64,000 nt of DNA from Thiomicrospira sp. XS5 (lineage in GTDB: Bacteria; Pseudomonadota; Gammaproteobacteria; Thiomicrospirales; Thiomicrospiraceae): positions 930,001 through 994,000 of the forward strand of contig NZ_LQBO01000001.1 in assembly GCF_001507555.1 (NCBI RefSeq). Reading direction: 5' to 3'. The position numbers and the translations under genes are program-made. How positions within the stretch are numbered: the stretch's first letter is position 1; the number at the start of each line of letters is the position of its first letter. The notes below the pieces were generated by a model. The model was not told the DNA's origin. It saw only the letters and a program-made list of their open reading frames with translations, and did not search any database. Below, piece by piece: positions 48,455 through 56,176 of this stretch.

Positions 48455-48976
48455 ATGGATACTCAAAAATCTGAAGCGTCCGTTCAATTTAGAAAACCTA
48501 AATTGGAAGATGGACTGGCTATTTATCACTTAATCCAGGCGTCACCGCCGTTGGATGTGAATTCGAGCTACTTATATTTTCTGCAAGCGTCGCATTTTGC
48601 GGACACTTGTGCGGTGGCGGAGGTCGACGGTCAAATCGTCGGTTTTATTTCCGCTTATTATCGACCGGATCGGCCTGGCTCTCTGTTTGTCTGGCAGGTG
48701 GCCATATCCGATACCATGCGAGGCCAGGGCATGGCCAAACGCTTGTTAACGGCTTTGCTGACGCAACAGCCGAAAGACAGCGTGACGGAACTGTGTTGTA
48801 CCATCAGTCCGTCTAATAAAGCCTCCCAAGGGCTGTTTAAATCATTTGCCAGACAACACGGGCTGACGTTACAGGTCGCGCCGTTTATCACCGAGGCACA
48901 TTTCGGGGATGAAGGGCATGAAGCGGAAGAGTTGTACTCCCTGACGTCGGAAACCGAATCAACGATTACACTTTAA
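48455..48976 (+). CDS. ectA: L-2,4-diaminobutyrate acetyltransferase
   Basis: Acetylates diaminobutyrate at N4, the second step of ectoine synthesis. It is 173 aa and a GNAT-fold enzyme: VQFRKPKLEDGLAIYHLIQ, SPPLDVNSSYLYFL (EctA-specific), SLFVWQVAISDTMRGQGMAK with the acetyl-CoA loop, and ISPSNKASQGLFKSFAR. It begins ectABC, 21 bp before ectB. Ectoine is an osmoprotectant, so the operon points to a saline habitat. Confidence 0.96.
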   Translation: MDTQKSEASVQFRKPKLEDGLAIYHLIQASPPLDVNSSYLYFLQASHFADTCAVAEVDGQIVGFISAYYRPDRPGSLFVWQVAISDTMRGQGMAKRLLTALLTQQPKDSVTELCCTISPSNKASQGLFKSFARQHGLTLQVAPFITEAHFGDEGHEAEELYSLTSETESTITL

Positions 48977-48997
48977 ATTTTCAAAGGAACTTAAAAC

Positions 48998-50251
48998 ATG
49001 GCATTAGAAACGTTTAATAAATACGAATCGGAAGTGCGTGGTTACATTCGATCGTTTCCAACGATTTTCGATAAATCTAAAATGGCTGAAATTTGGGATG
49101 TTGACGGTAAACGTTACATCGACTTTTTTGCCGGCGCAGGCGCGCTGAACTACGGTCACAACAACCCGGCCATCAACGATGCTTTGATTGATTATCTGAA
49201 GCATGACGGCATCGGACACGCTCTGGATATGGGGACCGTTGCGAAAAAAGACTTCATTGAGAGCTTCGTTCATAACGTGCTGGAACCGCGCGACATGGAG
49301 TACAAGCTTCAGTTTGTCGGCCCGACCGGGACCAACGCGATTGAAACCGCGCTGAAAATTGCCCGTAAAGTCAAAGGCCGTAAGCAGGTCATGTCCTTCA
49401 CCAACGGCTTCCACGGTATGTCGATGGGCTCTTTGAGTATCACCGGTAACAGTTATTACCACGACGAAAGTTACGGTGTACCGGGTTACACCACTCAGGT
49501 GCCGTTCCATAAGTACCTGGGCGACAAGGTCGATACCATCGCTTACTTGCGTAAAATTCTGGAAGATACTTCTAGTGGGACGGAATTGCCGGCGGCGATC
49601 GTATTGGAAACCATTCAGGCCGAAGGCGGGATCAACGTTTCCGGTGAACAGTGGCTGCGCGACTTACGTCAAATCTGTGACGATTTCGACATCTTGATGG
49701 TGGCGGATGAGATTCAGGTCGGTAACGGTCGTTCCGGTGACTTTTTCAGTTTTGAACGTGCAGGCATTAAGCCGGACATCATTACATTGTCGAAGTCGAT
49801 TGGTGCCGGTCAGCCGATGGCCTTGGTGTTGTTGAAACCGGAGCTGGACCAATGGAGTCCGGGCGAGCACTCAGGGACTTTCCGCGGGAATAACCTGGCG
49901 TTTGTTTCCTCCAGCGTGGCCTTGAAAAAATATTGGTCGGACGACAGCTTCTCGAAAGAAGTGAAAGCGAAAGCCGCTCTGGTTCAAGCGCGCATGGAAA
50001 AATTGGCATTGCGTTTCCCGCAATATGTACGCGAAATTCGCGGGCATGGCATGATTTGGGGGGCCGAATTTAAAGATCCAGATATGACGTCTAAAGTCTG
50101 TGCACAAGCCTTTGAAGATGGTTTGGTCATTGAAACGGCGGGTGCCGGCGATGAAGTCATTAAATTCTTAGGGCCATTGGTGATTAGCGAAGATTTGATT
50201 AACGAAGGCTTTGATATTTTGGAAGGTGCGGTTGAAAAAGTCGGCAAGTAA
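48998..50251 (+). CDS. ectB: Diaminobutyrate-2-oxoglutarate transaminase
   Basis: PLP enzyme that converts aspartate semialdehyde and glutamate to 2,4-diaminobutyrate, the first step of ectoine synthesis. It is 417 aa, class-III aminotransferase. Motifs: FFAGAGALNYGHNNPAINDA, QFVGPTGTNAIETALKIARK, MVADEIQVGNGRSGDFFSFE and TLSKSIGAGQPMAL with the PLP Lys266. AAAGGAA precedes the ATG. It is followed by ectC after 50 bp. Confidence 0.97.
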   Translation: MALETFNKYESEVRGYIRSFPTIFDKSKMAEIWDVDGKRYIDFFAGAGALNYGHNNPAINDALIDYLKHDGIGHALDMGTVAKKDFIESFVHNVLEPRDMEYKLQFVGPTGTNAIETALKIARKVKGRKQVMSFTNGFHGMSMGSLSITGNSYYHDESYGVPGYTTQVPFHKYLGDKVDTIAYLRKILEDTSSGTELPAAIVLETIQAEGGINVSGEQWLRDLRQICDDFDILMVADEIQVGNGRSGDFFSFERAGIKPDIITLSKSIGAGQPMALVLLKPELDQWSPGEHSGTFRGNNLAFVSSSVALKKYWSDDSFSKEVKAKAALVQARMEKLALRFPQYVREIRGHGMIWGAEFKDPDMTSKVCAQAFEDGLVIETAGAGDEVIKFLGPLVISEDLINEGFDILEGAVEKVGK

Positions 50252-50301
50252 TTTTTGCCCACAAGCGACAACCTTTTGAACAGAAACGATTAGGAGAAAA
50301 C

Positions 50302-50700
50302 ATGATTGTTCGTAATTTATATGACGATATTATTGGTACCGATGCCGATGTAGACGATAAGCAGTGGACCAGCCGCCGCCTATTATTGGCCAAAGACGGC
50401 ATGGGCTTTTCATTGCACGATACTTTGATCAAAGAAGGTGAAGAACTGCACCTGTGGTACAAGAACCACTTGGAAGCGGTGTATTGCATTGAAGGCGAAG
50501 GCGAAATCGAAGAGAAGAAAAACGGGAAAGTCCACGCGATCCGCGAAGGGACCGTTTACGCCTTGAATGAAAACGATCAGCACATCTTGAAAGCCAATAA
50601 AGGCAGTCAGATGCGCATGGTATGTGTTTTCAATCCGCCGGTCACCGGGCGTGAAACCCATGACGAAGACGGTTCTTACGTCTTAGTGGATGAAGCTTAA
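50302..50700 (+). CDS. ectC: L-ectoine synthase
   Basis: Cyclises N4-acetyl-diaminobutyrate to ectoine. It is 132 aa, cupin fold. Start IVRNLYDDIIGTDADVDD is diagnostic; LHLWYKNHLEAVYCIEGEGE and TVYALNENDQHILKANKG form the cupin core, and MVCVFNPPVTGRETHDEDGS the end. AGGAGAAA precedes ATG 50302. No hydroxylase gene (ectD) is nearby. A 24-bp palindromic terminator separates it from ask. Confidence 0.97.
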   Translation: MIVRNLYDDIIGTDADVDDKQWTSRRLLLAKDGMGFSLHDTLIKEGEELHLWYKNHLEAVYCIEGEGEIEEKKNGKVHAIREGTVYALNENDQHILKANKGSQMRMVCVFNPPVTGRETHDEDGSYVLVDEA

Positions 50701-50737
50701 ACCTCATCGCTTTTTAGCATCGATTTGATCGAGCTTG

Positions 50738-50761
50738 AAAATGCCCAGGCCTGGGCATTTT
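50738..50761. terminator. 24-bp perfect palindrome terminator between ectC and ask
   Basis: AAAATGC + CCAGGCCTGG + GCATTTT: a perfect palindrome, continued by TATCCTTTT. It has the same length and design as the one at 14015-14038. It lies 38 bases after the ectC stop and 41 bases before ask, so it may lower ask expression relative to ectABC. Confidence 0.6.
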
Positions 50762-50801
50762 ATCCTTTTAAATAACGGAGTGTTTTTTTTAAAAAATTAC
50801 C

Positions 50802-52247
50802 ATGTCAAACACACATAAAAATCAGTTGAGTGTCGAAAAAATCGGCGGCACGTCAATGAGTGATTATCAGGCGGTTCGAGACAATATTATTTTGTATCCG
50901 GACAGTCCTTACCAGCGTATTTTTGTGGTGTCGGCCTACGGCGGCATTACCAACGACTTGCTGGAACATAAAAAGACCGATCAGCCCGGTGTCTACGGCT
51001 TGTTTGCCAATGACGACGTTGAGGATGATTGGCGCATTGCTTTGGACCAGTTGAGTCTGAAACTGAATAAAATTAATGCCGATTTGTTCGATGACGATGA
51101 CGTGCGCACAAAAGCCAATGCTTTTATCGACGAACGGTTTGCAGAAACCAAACAGCTGTTGAACCATTTGCAGGACTTGTGTCGGCACGGTCACTTTTCG
51201 CTAGAAAGCCACCTGTTGACGGTGCGCGAACTTCTGGCCAGTCTTGGGGAAGCCCACAGTGCCTGGAACCTAGCCCACCTCTTGCAGCAAGAAGGTGTTA
51301 ATGCACGGTTTGTCGACTTGACCGGCTGGCAGGCGGATAAAACCTTGTCCTTGGACGAAATGATTAAAGTGCATCTGGGCGATGTTGACTTTTCACGTGA
51401 ACTACCGATTGTCACCGGCTATGCGCATTGTCAGGAAAATTTGATGCATACCTTTGACCGAGGTTACAGTGAAATGACGTTTAGCCGTATCGCGGTCTTA
51501 ACCGAAGCGACCGAAGCGGTGATTCACAAAGAGTACCACCTCAGCAGTGCCGACCCAAAATTGGTGGGCGAAGAGAATGTGGTGCCAATCGGGAAAACCA
51601 ATTACGATATTGCCGATCAATTGGCTAATCTTGGTATGGAGGCCGTGCATCCGAAAGCGGCGCAAGGCTTGCGTCAAGCGCAAATTCCATTACGGATTAA
51701 AAACACCTTTGACCCGGGGCATCACGGCACTATCTTTACCGAAGATTATGTCAGTGAGTTCCCTCAGGTGGAAATCATTGCCGGCATGCAGCACTTGATT
51801 GCGCTGGAAGTGTTCGATCAGGAAATGATGGGGCAACAAGGGCATTATGAAAAGATTCTGATTGATACCAGTAATCGTCTGAAATGTCAGGTTATCACCA
51901 AGGATTTCAACGCCAATACCATTACCTTGTATTTGAGTGCGTCCTTGAAGAAAGTGAAACGACTTTCGGAACAACTGCAGCAGGCGTTGCCAACCGCTAC
52001 CATCAATACCAGTAAAGTCGCCTTGGCGTCCGCGATGGGCAGTGATATGCGCATTAAAGGCTTGTTGGCCAAAGCGGTTCAGACGCTATTCGATCAGGGG
52101 ATTAACGTTGAAGCGATTCATCAAAATACCCGTCAGGTCGAAATGCAATTTTTCGTGAATGAAACGGATTTCGAAAAGGCGGTCAAAGCCTTGCACTCCA
52201 AGCTGATTGAAGTCCACGATCATGGGAAGGCGATATGCGAGCATTGA
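50802..52247 (+). CDS. ask: Aspartokinase associated with ectoine synthesis (Ask_Ect)
   Basis: Phosphorylates aspartate, feeding aspartate semialdehyde to EctB. It is 481 aa. N-terminal SVEKIGGTSMSDYQAVRDNI holds the K-x-G-G-T-S kinase motif. GYSEMTFSRIAVLTEATEAV, EYHLSSADPKLVGEENVVPI and HPKAAQGLRQAQIPLRIKNT resemble the ectoine-specific Ask branch, and two ACT domains end the protein. In the known family this isoform serves osmoadaptation and is less feedback-inhibited. The placement behind ectC supports this role. Its last 13 bases overlap the next gene. Confidence 0.92.
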   Translation: MSNTHKNQLSVEKIGGTSMSDYQAVRDNIILYPDSPYQRIFVVSAYGGITNDLLEHKKTDQPGVYGLFANDDVEDDWRIALDQLSLKLNKINADLFDDDDVRTKANAFIDERFAETKQLLNHLQDLCRHGHFSLESHLLTVRELLASLGEAHSAWNLAHLLQQEGVNARFVDLTGWQADKTLSLDEMIKVHLGDVDFSRELPIVTGYAHCQENLMHTFDRGYSEMTFSRIAVLTEATEAVIHKEYHLSSADPKLVGEENVVPIGKTNYDIADQLANLGMEAVHPKAAQGLRQAQIPLRIKNTFDPGHHGTIFTEDYVSEFPQVEIIAGMQHLIALEVFDQEMMGQQGHYEKILIDTSNRLKCQVITKDFNANTITLYLSASLKKVKRLSEQLQQALPTATINTSKVALASAMGSDMRIKGLLAKAVQTLFDQGINVEAIHQNTRQVEMQFFVNETDFEKAVKALHSKLIEVHDHGKAICEH

Positions 52248-53327: not shown

Positions 53328-53834
53328 ATGAATAACATTTGGCAAGCCGTCGGCATTGCGTTTTTGACCCTTGCAAGCTTCCACGCTTCGGCCGCGGATT
53401 TTTTCGATGAAACGTTTGGTAATCTGCAAGAAGAACTGGAAGTGGCAAAAGACGATGGTAAACAGGGTATTTTCATTTTCTTTCACATGGAAGAATGTCC
53501 ATTCTGTGACCGTATGAAGAACACCATTCTAAACAAACCGGATGTCATTCAATACTTCAAAAAGCATTTTTTGACCTATCAAATGGATATTGAAGGTTCA
53601 AACGACATGGTCAACTTTGATGGGACTGAAGGAACGTCTCAGTACTTGTCTGAAAAAATTTATCGCGTACGGGCAACACCGGTGATGATTATTTTCGATT
53701 TGGAAGGCAAGCCAGTGGTTCGTTATACCGGGCCAACCCGAACCAAAGAAGAGTTTATGCTGTTAGGGAAGTATGTTGTCGACGGCGCTTATAAAGACAC
53801 GTCATTTACACGTTATAAAAGACAAAACAGATAA
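53328..53834 (+). CDS. Periplasmic thioredoxin-fold protein, CPFC type
   Basis: A 168-aa protein with a signal peptide (FLTLASFHASA, cleavage near residue 22) and a thioredoxin domain. The redox motif is Cys-Pro-Phe-Cys (57-60) in FFHMEECPFCDRMKNTILN, with the cis-Pro loop RVRATPVMIIFDLEGKPVVR. The pattern is close to thioredoxin-like SoxW/DsbE-type proteins of the Thioredoxin_2/7 kind. It begins a three-gene run with a TolC-type channel and a membrane-fusion protein (9 bp gap), so it may keep a cysteine in one of the partners or cargo reduced. The client is unknown. Confidence 0.85.
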   Translation: MNNIWQAVGIAFLTLASFHASAADFFDETFGNLQEELEVAKDDGKQGIFIFFHMEECPFCDRMKNTILNKPDVIQYFKKHFLTYQMDIEGSNDMVNFDGTEGTSQYLSEKIYRVRATPVMIIFDLEGKPVVRYTGPTRTKEEFMLLGKYVVDGAYKDTSFTRYKRQNR

Positions 53835-53845
53835 CGGGTGGCTTG

Positions 53846-55216
53846 ATGAGATTGAATCCGTTACATTTTACGATACGCGGCGTGCTGGTGTTATCAGCGT
53901 TGCTGCCGCATAGTGTTTTGGCGGCTGATGACGCCGTTATGAATGCCGCCCAAGCCACTGGACCGGTGGCTGAAGGCGCGATGACCCCAGGCCATCCGGC
54001 TCAGGACTTACCCGAACCTTTGACCTTGGAAAGTGTGATGGCGTTGCCGGAAACCATCAGCCCACAGATCATGCGAGCCAAAGCACGTCATGCTCAAGCG
54101 CAGGCACGTTATAACCTACAAGAAACCGACGATAATTTCGAACTGGATTTGATCGGCCGCTTGGGTTGGCGCGAGTATGACTTTCAGACCGAGGACAACC
54201 ATTTATTCGGGCTGCATTTAGGCAAGGAATTGTATGACTTTGGTCGCAACGAGGCTGCGTTGGAAGCGGAACAACGTCTGACGGCGGCGCAGAATGAACG
54301 CTACCAAGATCAGAAAATTCAGTTTCAGATTCGGTTGATGCAAGCCTACTTTAATATCATTCTGGCCGATTTTCAGTACCGGATTGAAAATGAATCCATG
54401 GCCGTCGCCTATATTGCCATGGACAAGGCCGAAGACCGCCATGAACTCAAACAAATGTCTGACGTGGACTATCTGAAACTGCAAGCGGATTATGAGAAAT
54501 TGTTGGTCAAACGAACGCGAGCATCCTATGAGCAGCGCCGTACCCGAACCAATCTCGCCAACTTGGTTGGCCGTCCGGATGCCTTGCCGGATAAACTGCG
54601 TTTTCCGTCACTGGAGTCAGTCACGAAACGGTCATTGGATGACTTGGGTGTGTATCAAAAACAGGCATTAGCCAGCAATTTGCACTTACACAGTTTGCAG
54701 TTAAAGCTCCAGGCCGCAGAATCGCGCTTAAACGGTGAATCGTTAGAAGATATGCCAACCTTCCGGGTGGATGCTTTGGGCGGCTATTCCTCAAACTATG
54801 CTTACGGTCGAGAGGGACGTTGGCGATTCGATTTGACGATGGATTACCCACTGTATGATGGCGGGGTGCGTTCCGCAAAAGTGAGTGAGGCACGCGCTGA
54901 AGTGCAGGCGATTCAAGCTGACATTCATGAGTACGAACAATCGTTGCGCGATCAGGTGGCCGATTTGTATTTTAAATTGCAGATGGCGGAAGCGGAAAAG
55001 AAACAAAATAAGGTGTTTGGTGAATATTCCGAGCTGTACCTGGATTACAGTCGTGCATTGTATGAAAACGAATCCACAACCGATTTAGGTGATTCGATGG
55101 TGCGTTTGTCGGAAGCCAATTATCGAGTCATCGCTCAGCAGTTTCGTGAAACGTTGCACTGGGCGCAGTTGGATTATTTGACCGGTAAGCCGGTAGAACT
55201 GGAGGCTTACCAATGA
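53846..55216 (+). CDS. TolC-family outer-membrane channel protein
   Basis: A 456-aa outer-membrane efflux protein. I chose ATG 53846 (GGGTGG just upstream); a TTG at 53843 is adjacent. The signal peptide ends near HSVLAAD. The helical repeats of the OEP family are visible: PETISPQIMRAKARHAQAQA and later QALASNLHLHSLQLKLQAAE. Short strands of the barrel include WRFDLTMDYPLYDGGVRSAK. It is followed by a short periplasmic adaptor that overlaps its stop codon or starts 17 bp after it. No inner-membrane pump is in the operon, so the export partner is unclear. Confidence 0.88.
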   Translation: MRLNPLHFTIRGVLVLSALLPHSVLAADDAVMNAAQATGPVAEGAMTPGHPAQDLPEPLTLESVMALPETISPQIMRAKARHAQAQARYNLQETDDNFELDLIGRLGWREYDFQTEDNHLFGLHLGKELYDFGRNEAALEAEQRLTAAQNERYQDQKIQFQIRLMQAYFNIILADFQYRIENESMAVAYIAMDKAEDRHELKQMSDVDYLKLQADYEKLLVKRTRASYEQRRTRTNLANLVGRPDALPDKLRFPSLESVTKRSLDDLGVYQKQALASNLHLHSLQLKLQAAESRLNGESLEDMPTFRVDALGGYSSNYAYGREGRWRFDLTMDYPLYDGGVRSAKVSEARAEVQAIQADIHEYEQSLRDQVADLYFKLQMAEAEKKQNKVFGEYSELYLDYSRALYENESTTDLGDSMVRLSEANYRVIAQQFRETLHWAQLDYLTGKPVELEAYQ

Positions 55217-55233
55217 GTGAAAAGGAAAACATT

Positions 55234-55740
55234 ATGAAACAATGCTTCATCGGGTGTCTGCTGACGGGCGGCCTTTTTCTGGGAGGCGTGCAAACCGCTT
55301 GGGCCGAAGTCGTTCAAATCGGTTCCTTGGTGTCGGGCCAGGTTGAAAAAGTCATGGTGATGCCTGGGCAAAACGTGAAGACAGGTCAATTACTGATGAC
55401 CATTGATGATGACCGTTATCAGGCCAAATTGAAAACCGCTCGGGCTGAGGTCAAGCTTTGGCAGTTAAAACTGGCCGATGCGCAAATCGAACTGGATCAG
55501 GCGTTGGATTTGTATGATCGGACCGTCACCGCGAAGCGTGAGCTGGATGCCGCGCAGTTGGCATACGATGTCGTGAAACAGGAATTGGTGAAGGCGAAAG
55601 CGAATTTGGAATCTTACCAGGCCTGGTCGAAATACTTTGTGATTAAGGCTCCGGTTTCCGGCAAAATCGCTAAAATCAATGCGCCGAAAGGCACCACGGT
55701 GTACAAGGAAAACACGCCGTTGATTCAGATTGAACATTGA
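55234..55740 (+). CDS. Short periplasmic adaptor (membrane-fusion) protein
   Basis: A 168-aa protein from ATG 55234, with AAGGAAAA upstream and a signal peptide (CFIGCLLTGGLFLGGVQTAWA); an ATG at 55213, overlapping the previous stop as ATGA, is the alternative. It has a biotinyl-lipoyl-like half (QIGSLVSGQVEKVMVMPGQN, VKTGQLLMTIDDDRYQAKLK), a helical hairpin (residues ~65-135), and a second lipoyl half (FVIKAPVSGKIAKINAPKGT). The beta-barrel and membrane-proximal domains of full adaptors are missing, so it is about half normal length. CCAGGCCTGG at 55617-55626 reads Gln-Ala-Trp. Function without a pump is unknown. Confidence 0.82.
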   Translation: MKQCFIGCLLTGGLFLGGVQTAWAEVVQIGSLVSGQVEKVMVMPGQNVKTGQLLMTIDDDRYQAKLKTARAEVKLWQLKLADAQIELDQALDLYDRTVTAKRELDAAQLAYDVVKQELVKAKANLESYQAWSKYFVIKAPVSGKIAKINAPKGTTVYKENTPLIQIEH

Positions 55741-55786: not shown

Positions 55787-56176
55787 TTATAAGTCTTGGC
55801 CGAAACCAAAGAATGTGCCTTCGATAGCCGTTTGTCTGTCCAGTGCGCTGAGGCCTTTTACCGAACGGATAATTAACCAAATCATCCACCAGACAAGAAT
55901 GATGGCGCCGACAAAAACGGTGGCCAGTAGCAAGCCTGCGAGCAGGTAAACCAGTCCGTACCAGAAGGTTTGAATTTGGAAATCGAAGTGGGTTTTCAGC
56001 CAAACCGGCATTTCCGGTTCACTGCGTTTTACATAGGCCATCACGACGCCGATAATGGCGGTCAGGCCAATCACCAATCCGACAAGATACAGAATGTAAA
56101 TAATCTTGGCATAAGTACTGTTGCTGCGGGTTGTCGACTCAATTGACGGGGCGGTTTCCGTAGCTTGTTCGCTCAT
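55787..56176 (-). CDS. Small membrane protein, DUF4870-like
   Basis: A 129-aa protein with a polar N-terminal tail (SEQATETAPSIESTTRSNST) and three hydrophobic segments (residues ~23-47, ~70-95 and ~88-108, the last two possibly one re-entrant pair). The stretch YILYLVGLVIGLTAIIGVVM and HFDFQIQTFWYGLV resemble DUF4870/Tic20-like small membrane proteins. GGAGGA lies upstream of the ATG. No function known. It is transcribed apart from its neighbours. Confidence 0.65.
   Translation of the reverse strand: MSEQATETAPSIESTTRSNSTYAKIIYILYLVGLVIGLTAIIGVVMAYVKRSEPEMPVWLKTHFDFQIQTFWYGLVYLLAGLLLATVFVGAIILVWWMIWLIIRSVKGLSALDRQTAIEGTFFGFGQDL

Follow-up and report, generated by a model that had tools for sequence, protein, structure and literature searches.

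How might a TolC-type outer-membrane channel serve a cell if the operon that encodes it supplies no inner-membrane pump? This question is raised by three genes at positions 53328-55740 of a 64,000-nucleotide stretch of the genome of the gammaproteobacterium Thiomicrospira sp. XS5 (contig NZ_LQBO01000001.1, positions 930,001 to 994,000 of the forward strand; hereafter the window), encoding a periplasmic thioredoxin-fold protein (TRX), a TolC-type channel (OEP) and a short periplasmic adaptor (MFP). An earlier reading, made from the sequence alone and referred to here as the sequence-only reading, had described this pump-less trio, and the observation is confirmed. The trio is a widespread conserved operon, and its association with the Sox pathway of sulfur oxidation is strong. 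We propose, with a probability of about 40%, that it serves Sox-type sulfur oxidation as a conduit across the cell envelope that works without a pump.

The operon and its products

In the open reading frame reading of the window, all three genes lie on the + strand in the same orientation. They are as tightly packed as had been described: the OEP start codon lies 8 bp past the TRX stop, and the ATG of MFP at 55213 overlaps the OEP stop. TRX (53328..53834, + strand) is a protein of 168 amino acids with a signal peptide and thioredoxin-type domain matches (PF13098, E=1.7e-15; PF13899, E=1.1e-8). Its only two cysteines, Cys 57 and Cys 60, both belong to a CPFC active-site motif (residues 57-60; 53496..53507, + strand), of which C-P-x-C is invariant in relatives; in an alignment of 24 relatives C57, P58, C60 and T117-P118 are invariant. 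The assignment as a periplasmic CPFC thioredoxin-like protein thus holds. TRX scores below the curated cut-off of the disulfide reductase model DsbH (NF043050; 33.6 of 190 bits), and no SoxW model matched it in the NCBIfam scan. A second protein family with a related thioredoxin domain, in frames of about 340-400 amino acids, is common in genomes of the same class; in one of them (G236) a longer member of this thioredoxin-domain family lies within 0.7 kb of SoxB (C30).

OEP (53843..55216, + strand; PF02321, E=4.1e-34) comprises 457 amino acids, none of them cysteine, and starts at a TTG at 53843, with an ATG next at 53846. Its AlphaFold2 model (like the others, built from window proteins and related loci only) has a TolC fold at a pLDDT of 88.9, and its best Protein Data Bank (PDB) matches in Foldseek are ST50, CusC and TolC (TMq up to 0.76). 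A single-sequence phmmer search of OEP against the PDB gave no match at 1e-5; an OEP profile did match. The barrel is represented by two blocks of strands, one at residues 100-131 (54140..54235, + strand; model strands 100-106, 109-112, 115-118 and 121-131) and one at residues 306-334 (54758..54844, + strand; model strands 306-316 and 327-334). The description of OEP as a full TolC-type channel is therefore upheld.

MFP (55213..55740, + strand) has 175 amino acids and a cleavable-type signal sequence if translated from the ATG at 55213, or 168 amino acids from an internal ATG at 55234. It exceeds the cut-off of the TIGR01730 RND_mfp model (101.6 against 94.9 bits) but covers only positions 25-166 of its 322; the second-best NCBIfam match is to AaeA (NF007850). 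The AlphaFold2 model (pLDDT 92.3), which matches MacA and AcrA in Foldseek, consists of a signal helix, a first lipoyl half (residues 33-64; 55309..55404, + strand; strands 33-36, 42-47 and 60-64), an alpha-hairpin (helices 67-104 and 108-142; 55411..55638, + strand) and a second lipoyl half (residues 143-174; 55639..55734, + strand), after which the gene stops where the beta-barrel of its relatives begins. Neither a beta-barrel nor a membrane-proximal domain is present in the model, in agreement with the half-length adaptor of about 168 residues originally described.

Conservation and association with the Sox pathway

Conserved co-occurrence of the three protein families, which the sequence-only reading had proposed to look for, was found across the class. 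Among 58 genomes of the window's own family, short MFP occurs in 50, TRX in 49 and both in 49; longer unrelated adaptors in G023 and G027 and a second match in G019 were dropped from the MFP count. In 47 of the 49 the two genes share a contig and strand and are 1301-1838 bp apart; in G014 and G054 they are on different contigs. The OEP of G014 is not followed by MFP though the contig continues. In a sample of 274 genomes of the class, TRX (E 4e-43 or better) was found in 72, OEP (E 1.6e-47 or better) in 69 and both in 68; the next TRX-like genome-level matches (1.7e-34 and weaker) lie in frames of greater length and were set aside as paralogues. OEP occurs alone in G123, and TRX alone in G058, G117, G223 and G325. 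The OEPs of the 69 genomes match over the whole barrel-bearing length or are cut by a contig end. The order TRX-OEP-MFP was assessed in 70 class loci; where the locus leaves room for the gene in question, OEP is found in its place in 61 of 66 and MFP in 55 of 61. A TlpA-like protein with a CPPC motif precedes TRX in 35 of 68 class loci. The corresponding figures were also taken from a list of named loci, the best 80 of at least 455 relatives, which is biased to close relatives and shares some genomes with the class loci: OEP follows TRX in 54 of 72, MFP is present in 50 of 69 and the TlpA-like CPPC protein in 36 of 76. Hydrogenovibrio and Thiomicrorhabdus are among these named relatives. Of the 18 named loci without OEP among the best 80, 17 carry Chromatiaceae names and one is a Sedimenticola.

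The distribution of OEP follows that of SoxB (TIGR04486, E 1e-60 or better; 112 of 115 matches above its cut-off). SoxB is present in 64 of the 69 OEP genomes and in 51 of the 205 others (Fisher 1.5e-24). Counted by family, with 168 families as the total, the figures are 41 of 44 with OEP and 32 of 124 others (p=1e-15), a form of counting that removes shared ancestry only partly. Five OEP genomes do not have SoxB (G111, G114, G247, G263 and G314), three of which have DsrA, and SoxB or DsrA occurs in 65 of the 66 genomes in which OEP is linked to TRX. In the host genome (G000; 2.63 Mb) the SoxB genes lie at 1.23 and 2.32 Mb, more than 0.2 Mb from the trio at 0.98 Mb, which does not stand in a sox cluster. 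In G223 (L233:7050-8836) a TRX homologue at the weak end of the accepted range (E=6.9e-44) lies 5.6 kb from SoxB, and the gene behind it encodes a PF04143 sulfur-transport protein. The earlier guess of a redox-active cargo such as a sulfur compound fits the strong association with SoxB and is the sounder half of that interpretation; the cargo itself stays at the level of a conjecture.

The missing pump and the shortened adaptor

The absence of a pump from the operon and its neighbours, as first described, is borne out: profiles built from the genome's own eight RND and two ABC proteins found no RND or ABC pump in the 64-kb window, and a Pfam scan of 12 neighbouring proteins found no pump among them, one (55787-56176) having no match above a cut-off. 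Nor is one found at close range in relatives, where a conserved adjacent pump would have changed the picture. In 157 loci, of which 129 carry OEP and some come from a shared genome, the RND profile gave two matches, both on the opposite strand and more than 6 kb away. The ABC profile gave seven; six of these lie 3.4-6.9 kb away on the opposite strand, and the seventh, on the same strand, lies 6.5 kb upstream. No linked inner-membrane RND or ABC pump was thus found in any sampled lineage. Clustering of neighbouring frames in the named loci, the one check that extends to MFS and FUSC types, revealed no conserved pump-sized family beside the operon.

In known tripartite systems the adaptor contacts the pump through its beta-barrel and membrane-proximal domains. 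The membrane-proximal domain is absent from adaptors in every lineage sampled. In most other families the adaptor has about 250 amino acids, with a HlyD_3-type segment (beta-barrel) after the lipoyl domain; long adaptors outnumber short ones by 53 to 7 in the class loci, where L072 and L200 among the seven are cut by contig ends and L225 possibly is too, and the named loci divide 27 to 26. Besides the window's family, L138, L145, L164, L207, L230 and L231 have the short form. The half-length adaptor is therefore real in the window's family without being general. That it might be a truncated pseudogene, an objection considered from the outset, is rejected by purifying selection on MFP (dN/dS about 0.10-0.11, pairwise against G002) and by its retention in 50 of the 58 family genomes. 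A frameshift as the cause of shortening was likewise discarded, no barrel remnant being detected downstream in 17 short-adaptor loci (one of them, L225, stops near the end of its contig and was left out of the true short forms) and the window; in the control, the barrel was detected in 9 of 12 long-adaptor loci, or 8 of 11 without L178, which is identical to a query. Since most other families keep the barrel-bearing version, shortening is a later, secondary loss, and since short forms appear in several lineages with no barrel remnants downstream, the loss is clean and repeated. The short adaptor thus derives from one in which the membrane-proximal domain was already missing.

A barrel-deleted channel in Chromatiaceae

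The named loci gave the impression that Chromatiaceae had lost OEP and MFP, a view overturned by whole-genome searches, which found the pair unlinked from TRX and with a shortened OEP. A homologue of 319-413 amino acids, as read in the alignment, is present in nine of nine Chromatiaceae genomes searched whole (L246-L254; for example L248:6678-7778 on the - strand and L250:5156-6163 on the + strand). A long-form MFP stands beside it in eight of the nine; L254, a 4.6-kb contig, has no MFP match. A 1928-residue MFP frame in L247 was dismissed as an artefact of masked N. In profile comparison the short OEP aligns to the window's OEP family with a probability of 100 (E=6e-57) and skips window residues of about 293-356, and with them the two strands of the second pair; the first strand block has mostly gone as well, with a short unrelated stretch in its stead. 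Because both blocks are deleted or replaced, a TolC barrel of four strands per subunit could not be built from this protein. It keeps the periplasmic tip motifs and has gained two invariant cysteines (C117 and C352 of L248), of which the window OEP has none.

Among 77 genomes of the Chromatiaceae family, 25 carry a full OEP, 16 a shortened one and 36 neither, with no overlap; the nine aligned forms include 4 of the 16, and the other 12 were classed by match range and a short frame only. The 27 phototrophs among the 77 (PF00124) comprise none with full OEP, 11 with the short form and 16 with neither (Fisher 1.4e-6). Alvin_0013-0015 of Allochromatium vinosum (PMC11267869) were considered as the trio and rejected, a CzcA pump standing alongside. 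A second, independent-looking and weaker case of a shortened channel may be G117 (L224:7783-8631), in which a 282-residue apparent OEP remnant directly follows the TlpA-like and TRX genes (PF02321, E=0.0025, below cut-off). This remnant has a long branch of 3.5 in the channel tree, no adaptor is seen with it, and the frame that follows is, judging from its motif, presumably an acylphosphatase.

Comparison with known systems and gene neighbourhood

The trio resembles tripartite efflux systems (AcrAB-TolC, MacAB-TolC, AaeAB) in having a TolC-fold channel and an adaptor with lipoyl and alpha-hairpin parts. It differs from them in possessing no pump gene, in adaptors that are without the membrane-proximal domain everywhere sampled and without the beta-barrel in the window's family, in the inclusion of a thioredoxin in the operon and in the barrel-deleted channel of one lineage. 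Judged by the features tested, the trio does not belong to the tripartite efflux systems, as it has neither a pump-docking part nor a linked pump. MFP matches AaeA-type adaptors over residues 31-168 (NF007850, E=8e-18), but at 64.6 of 400 bits and without the C-terminal part, and no AaeB-type pump is linked among the genes scanned. With type I secretion (TolC-HlyD-ABC) the trio shares TolC and HlyD-like parts, whereas it has no ABC exporter and its adaptor is short; OEP itself stays below the curated cut-off of the corresponding TolC model (TIGR01844; 81.1 of 225.15 bits). TRX is like SoxW and other periplasmic thioredoxins of sulfur oxidation in being exported, carrying CxxC and occurring in Sox genomes, with the homologue of G223 close to SoxB; unlike SoxW, the window TRX lies outside a sox cluster and gives no NCBIfam SoxW match.

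By Pfam, the genes ahead of the trio are of ectoine type (Ectoine_synth, Aminotran_3, AA_kinase), along with one for a TPR protein. Directly upstream, at 48455-52247, an acetyltransferase, a class-III aminotransferase, an ectoine synthase and an aspartokinase-like protein make up an ectoine-type biosynthesis set, the last gene of which is overlapped by the TPR gene at 52235. Downstream follow a small membrane-type protein with no Pfam match above a cut-off, a Pyr_redox_2 protein, dnaX, recR and OTCase. In the channel tree, the window OEP groups with Hydrogenovibrio.

Proposed function and alternative explanations

The reported physiology of relatives fits the proposal. Hydrogenovibrio and Thiomicrorhabdus are reported to form extracellular sulfur globules during thiosulfate oxidation despite having SoxCD (PMC5733100, PMC10608990), and for Hydrogenovibrio an unknown sulfur trafficking process is invoked (PMC5733100). 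Sulfur is placed in the periplasm in Chromatiaceae and described as excreted in Ectothiorhodospiraceae (PMC8877833, PMC10386293). An OEP that is never full-length in the phototrophs of the Chromatiaceae family, and is shortened in 11 of them, is in keeping with a sulfur conduit. No paper tying a TolC channel to sulfur export was found in the open-licence PMC literature. In Riftia symbionts a TolC, possibly of another family, is most abundant in small sulfur-rich cells, an observation attributed to host interaction (PMC7787665).

In the proposed conduit, the OEP trimer would open the outer membrane and MFP hairpins would cap its periplasmic tip. Since MFP lacks the pump-docking part, it would open to the periplasm rather than to an inner-membrane pump, so that the trio would function as a tripartite system reduced to its outer two thirds. 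The CPFC protein TRX, together with the CPPC TlpA-like partner in about half of the loci, may handle sulfane sulfur or polysulfide at the tunnel mouth, supplied by periplasmic Sox or sulfide oxidation, with the consequence that zero-valent sulfur would leave the periplasm and form extracellular globules. This persulfide and polysulfide handling by TRX, rather than a pump, would drive the flow. Zero-valent sulfur as the cargo, outward transport and docking of MFP to this OEP are the conjectural parts of the scheme. A more specific version, possible but doubtful, is that of a dedicated sulfur portal whose adaptor shed its pump interface and which would be driven by the thiol-persulfide chemistry of periplasmic thioredoxins instead of ATP or proton force; in periplasmic storers the tunnel would have lost its barrel and survived as a bundle of helices, soluble in the periplasm, with a part in handling or seeding the globule.

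Several observations weigh against a sulfur conduit of this kind. SoxB occurs without OEP in 51 genomes, and within SoxB genomes the presence of the operon is associated neither with SoxC (12/62 vs 12/53, p=0.82) nor with DsrA (46/62 vs 35/53, p=0.41). The sulfur-forming Sox variant without SoxCD was accordingly ruled out as a predictor of the operon. The Chromatiaceae contrast amounts essentially to one clade, the nine short OEPs being monophyletic in the channel tree (100/100), and a metagenome-assembled genome (MAG) labelled Chromatiaceae (L133) has the full set. A full OEP is also found in Candidatus Thiobius zoothamnicola (L137), a Solemya symbiont (L126), Sedimenticola MAGs (L138, G339) and Thioalkalivibrio ALJ7 (L162). 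Ca. Thiobius zoothamnicola, the Solemya symbiont and Sedimenticola hold sulfur internally. PMC10386293 lists internal sulfur for Thioalkalivibrio and other genera. Some lineages credited with internal sulfur storage thus keep a full OEP, which makes any rule based on the storage site imperfect. The f2 family genomes G058 and G325 kept TRX (L074, L229; the frame beside it in L074 is taken to be acylphosphatase-like) with no OEP genome-wide at 1e-10; together with the persistence of barrel-deleted forms, this indicates that the parts work without an outer-membrane pore.

The same retention of TRX in f2, and its separation from OEP in Chromatiaceae, would be expected if TRX, the TlpA-like protein, OEP and MFP served Sox proteins as a scaffold in the periplasm, for redox reactions or for assembly, and took part in transport only secondarily or not at all; its task might be the reduction of SoxYZ persulfide or c-type cytochromes. 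The reduction of Sox proteins usually relies on two thioredoxins, and the barrel-deleted OEPs still have the periplasmic tip as well as their two newly acquired invariant cysteines. We nevertheless regard a scaffold as unlikely, for most members (in 69 of the 274 class genomes) keep a barrel-bearing OEP, and a barrel would be costly for a scaffold. Distinctly less plausible is an inward conduit through which polysulfide or solubilised extracellular S0 would enter the periplasm and be oxidised there by Sox. The known role of TolC-type tunnels is that of exits, and a loss of export explains the shortened OEP of periplasmic storers at least as well, whereas the lack of a pump means that no direction is imposed. 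The strains of PMC5733100 oxidise elemental sulfur too, and HlyD- and TolC-type genes of Sulfurovum, possibly of other families, rise 1.65-9.64-fold on S0, an increase attributed to polysaccharide secretion (PMC10045233).

Docking of the trio with an inner-membrane pump encoded elsewhere, as suggested by the sequence-only reading, must be considered improbable. In an inventory restricted to RND pumps, all eight found in the host genome (PF00873) adjoin an adaptor-like gene of their own, leaving no orphan RND, and the window adaptor has no pump-contact part, its barrel having been lost in several lineages without remnants. Recruitment of such a pump is therefore not supported, even though five of the eight RND loci show no OEP alongside, which implies that some pumps share a channel, and most relatives' adaptors retain the beta-barrel. 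The notion that OEP merely serves these bacteria as an all-purpose TolC, with the small adaptor a leftover, can draw on the partial score of OEP with TIGR01844, and is very hard to reconcile with the purifying selection on MFP and its retention within the family, with a distribution tied to SoxB and TRX, and with the further OEP-type genes of the host genome.

Implications

The route by which periplasmic zero-valent sulfur reaches the outside, and returns, is left unexplained in the passages cited here. The conserved, Sox-linked channel operon offers a concrete set of candidate genes for the passage of S0 between periplasm and exterior. If the proposed conduit is real, a pump-less TolC and a barrel-less TolC homologue would widen the known roles of the TolC protein family.

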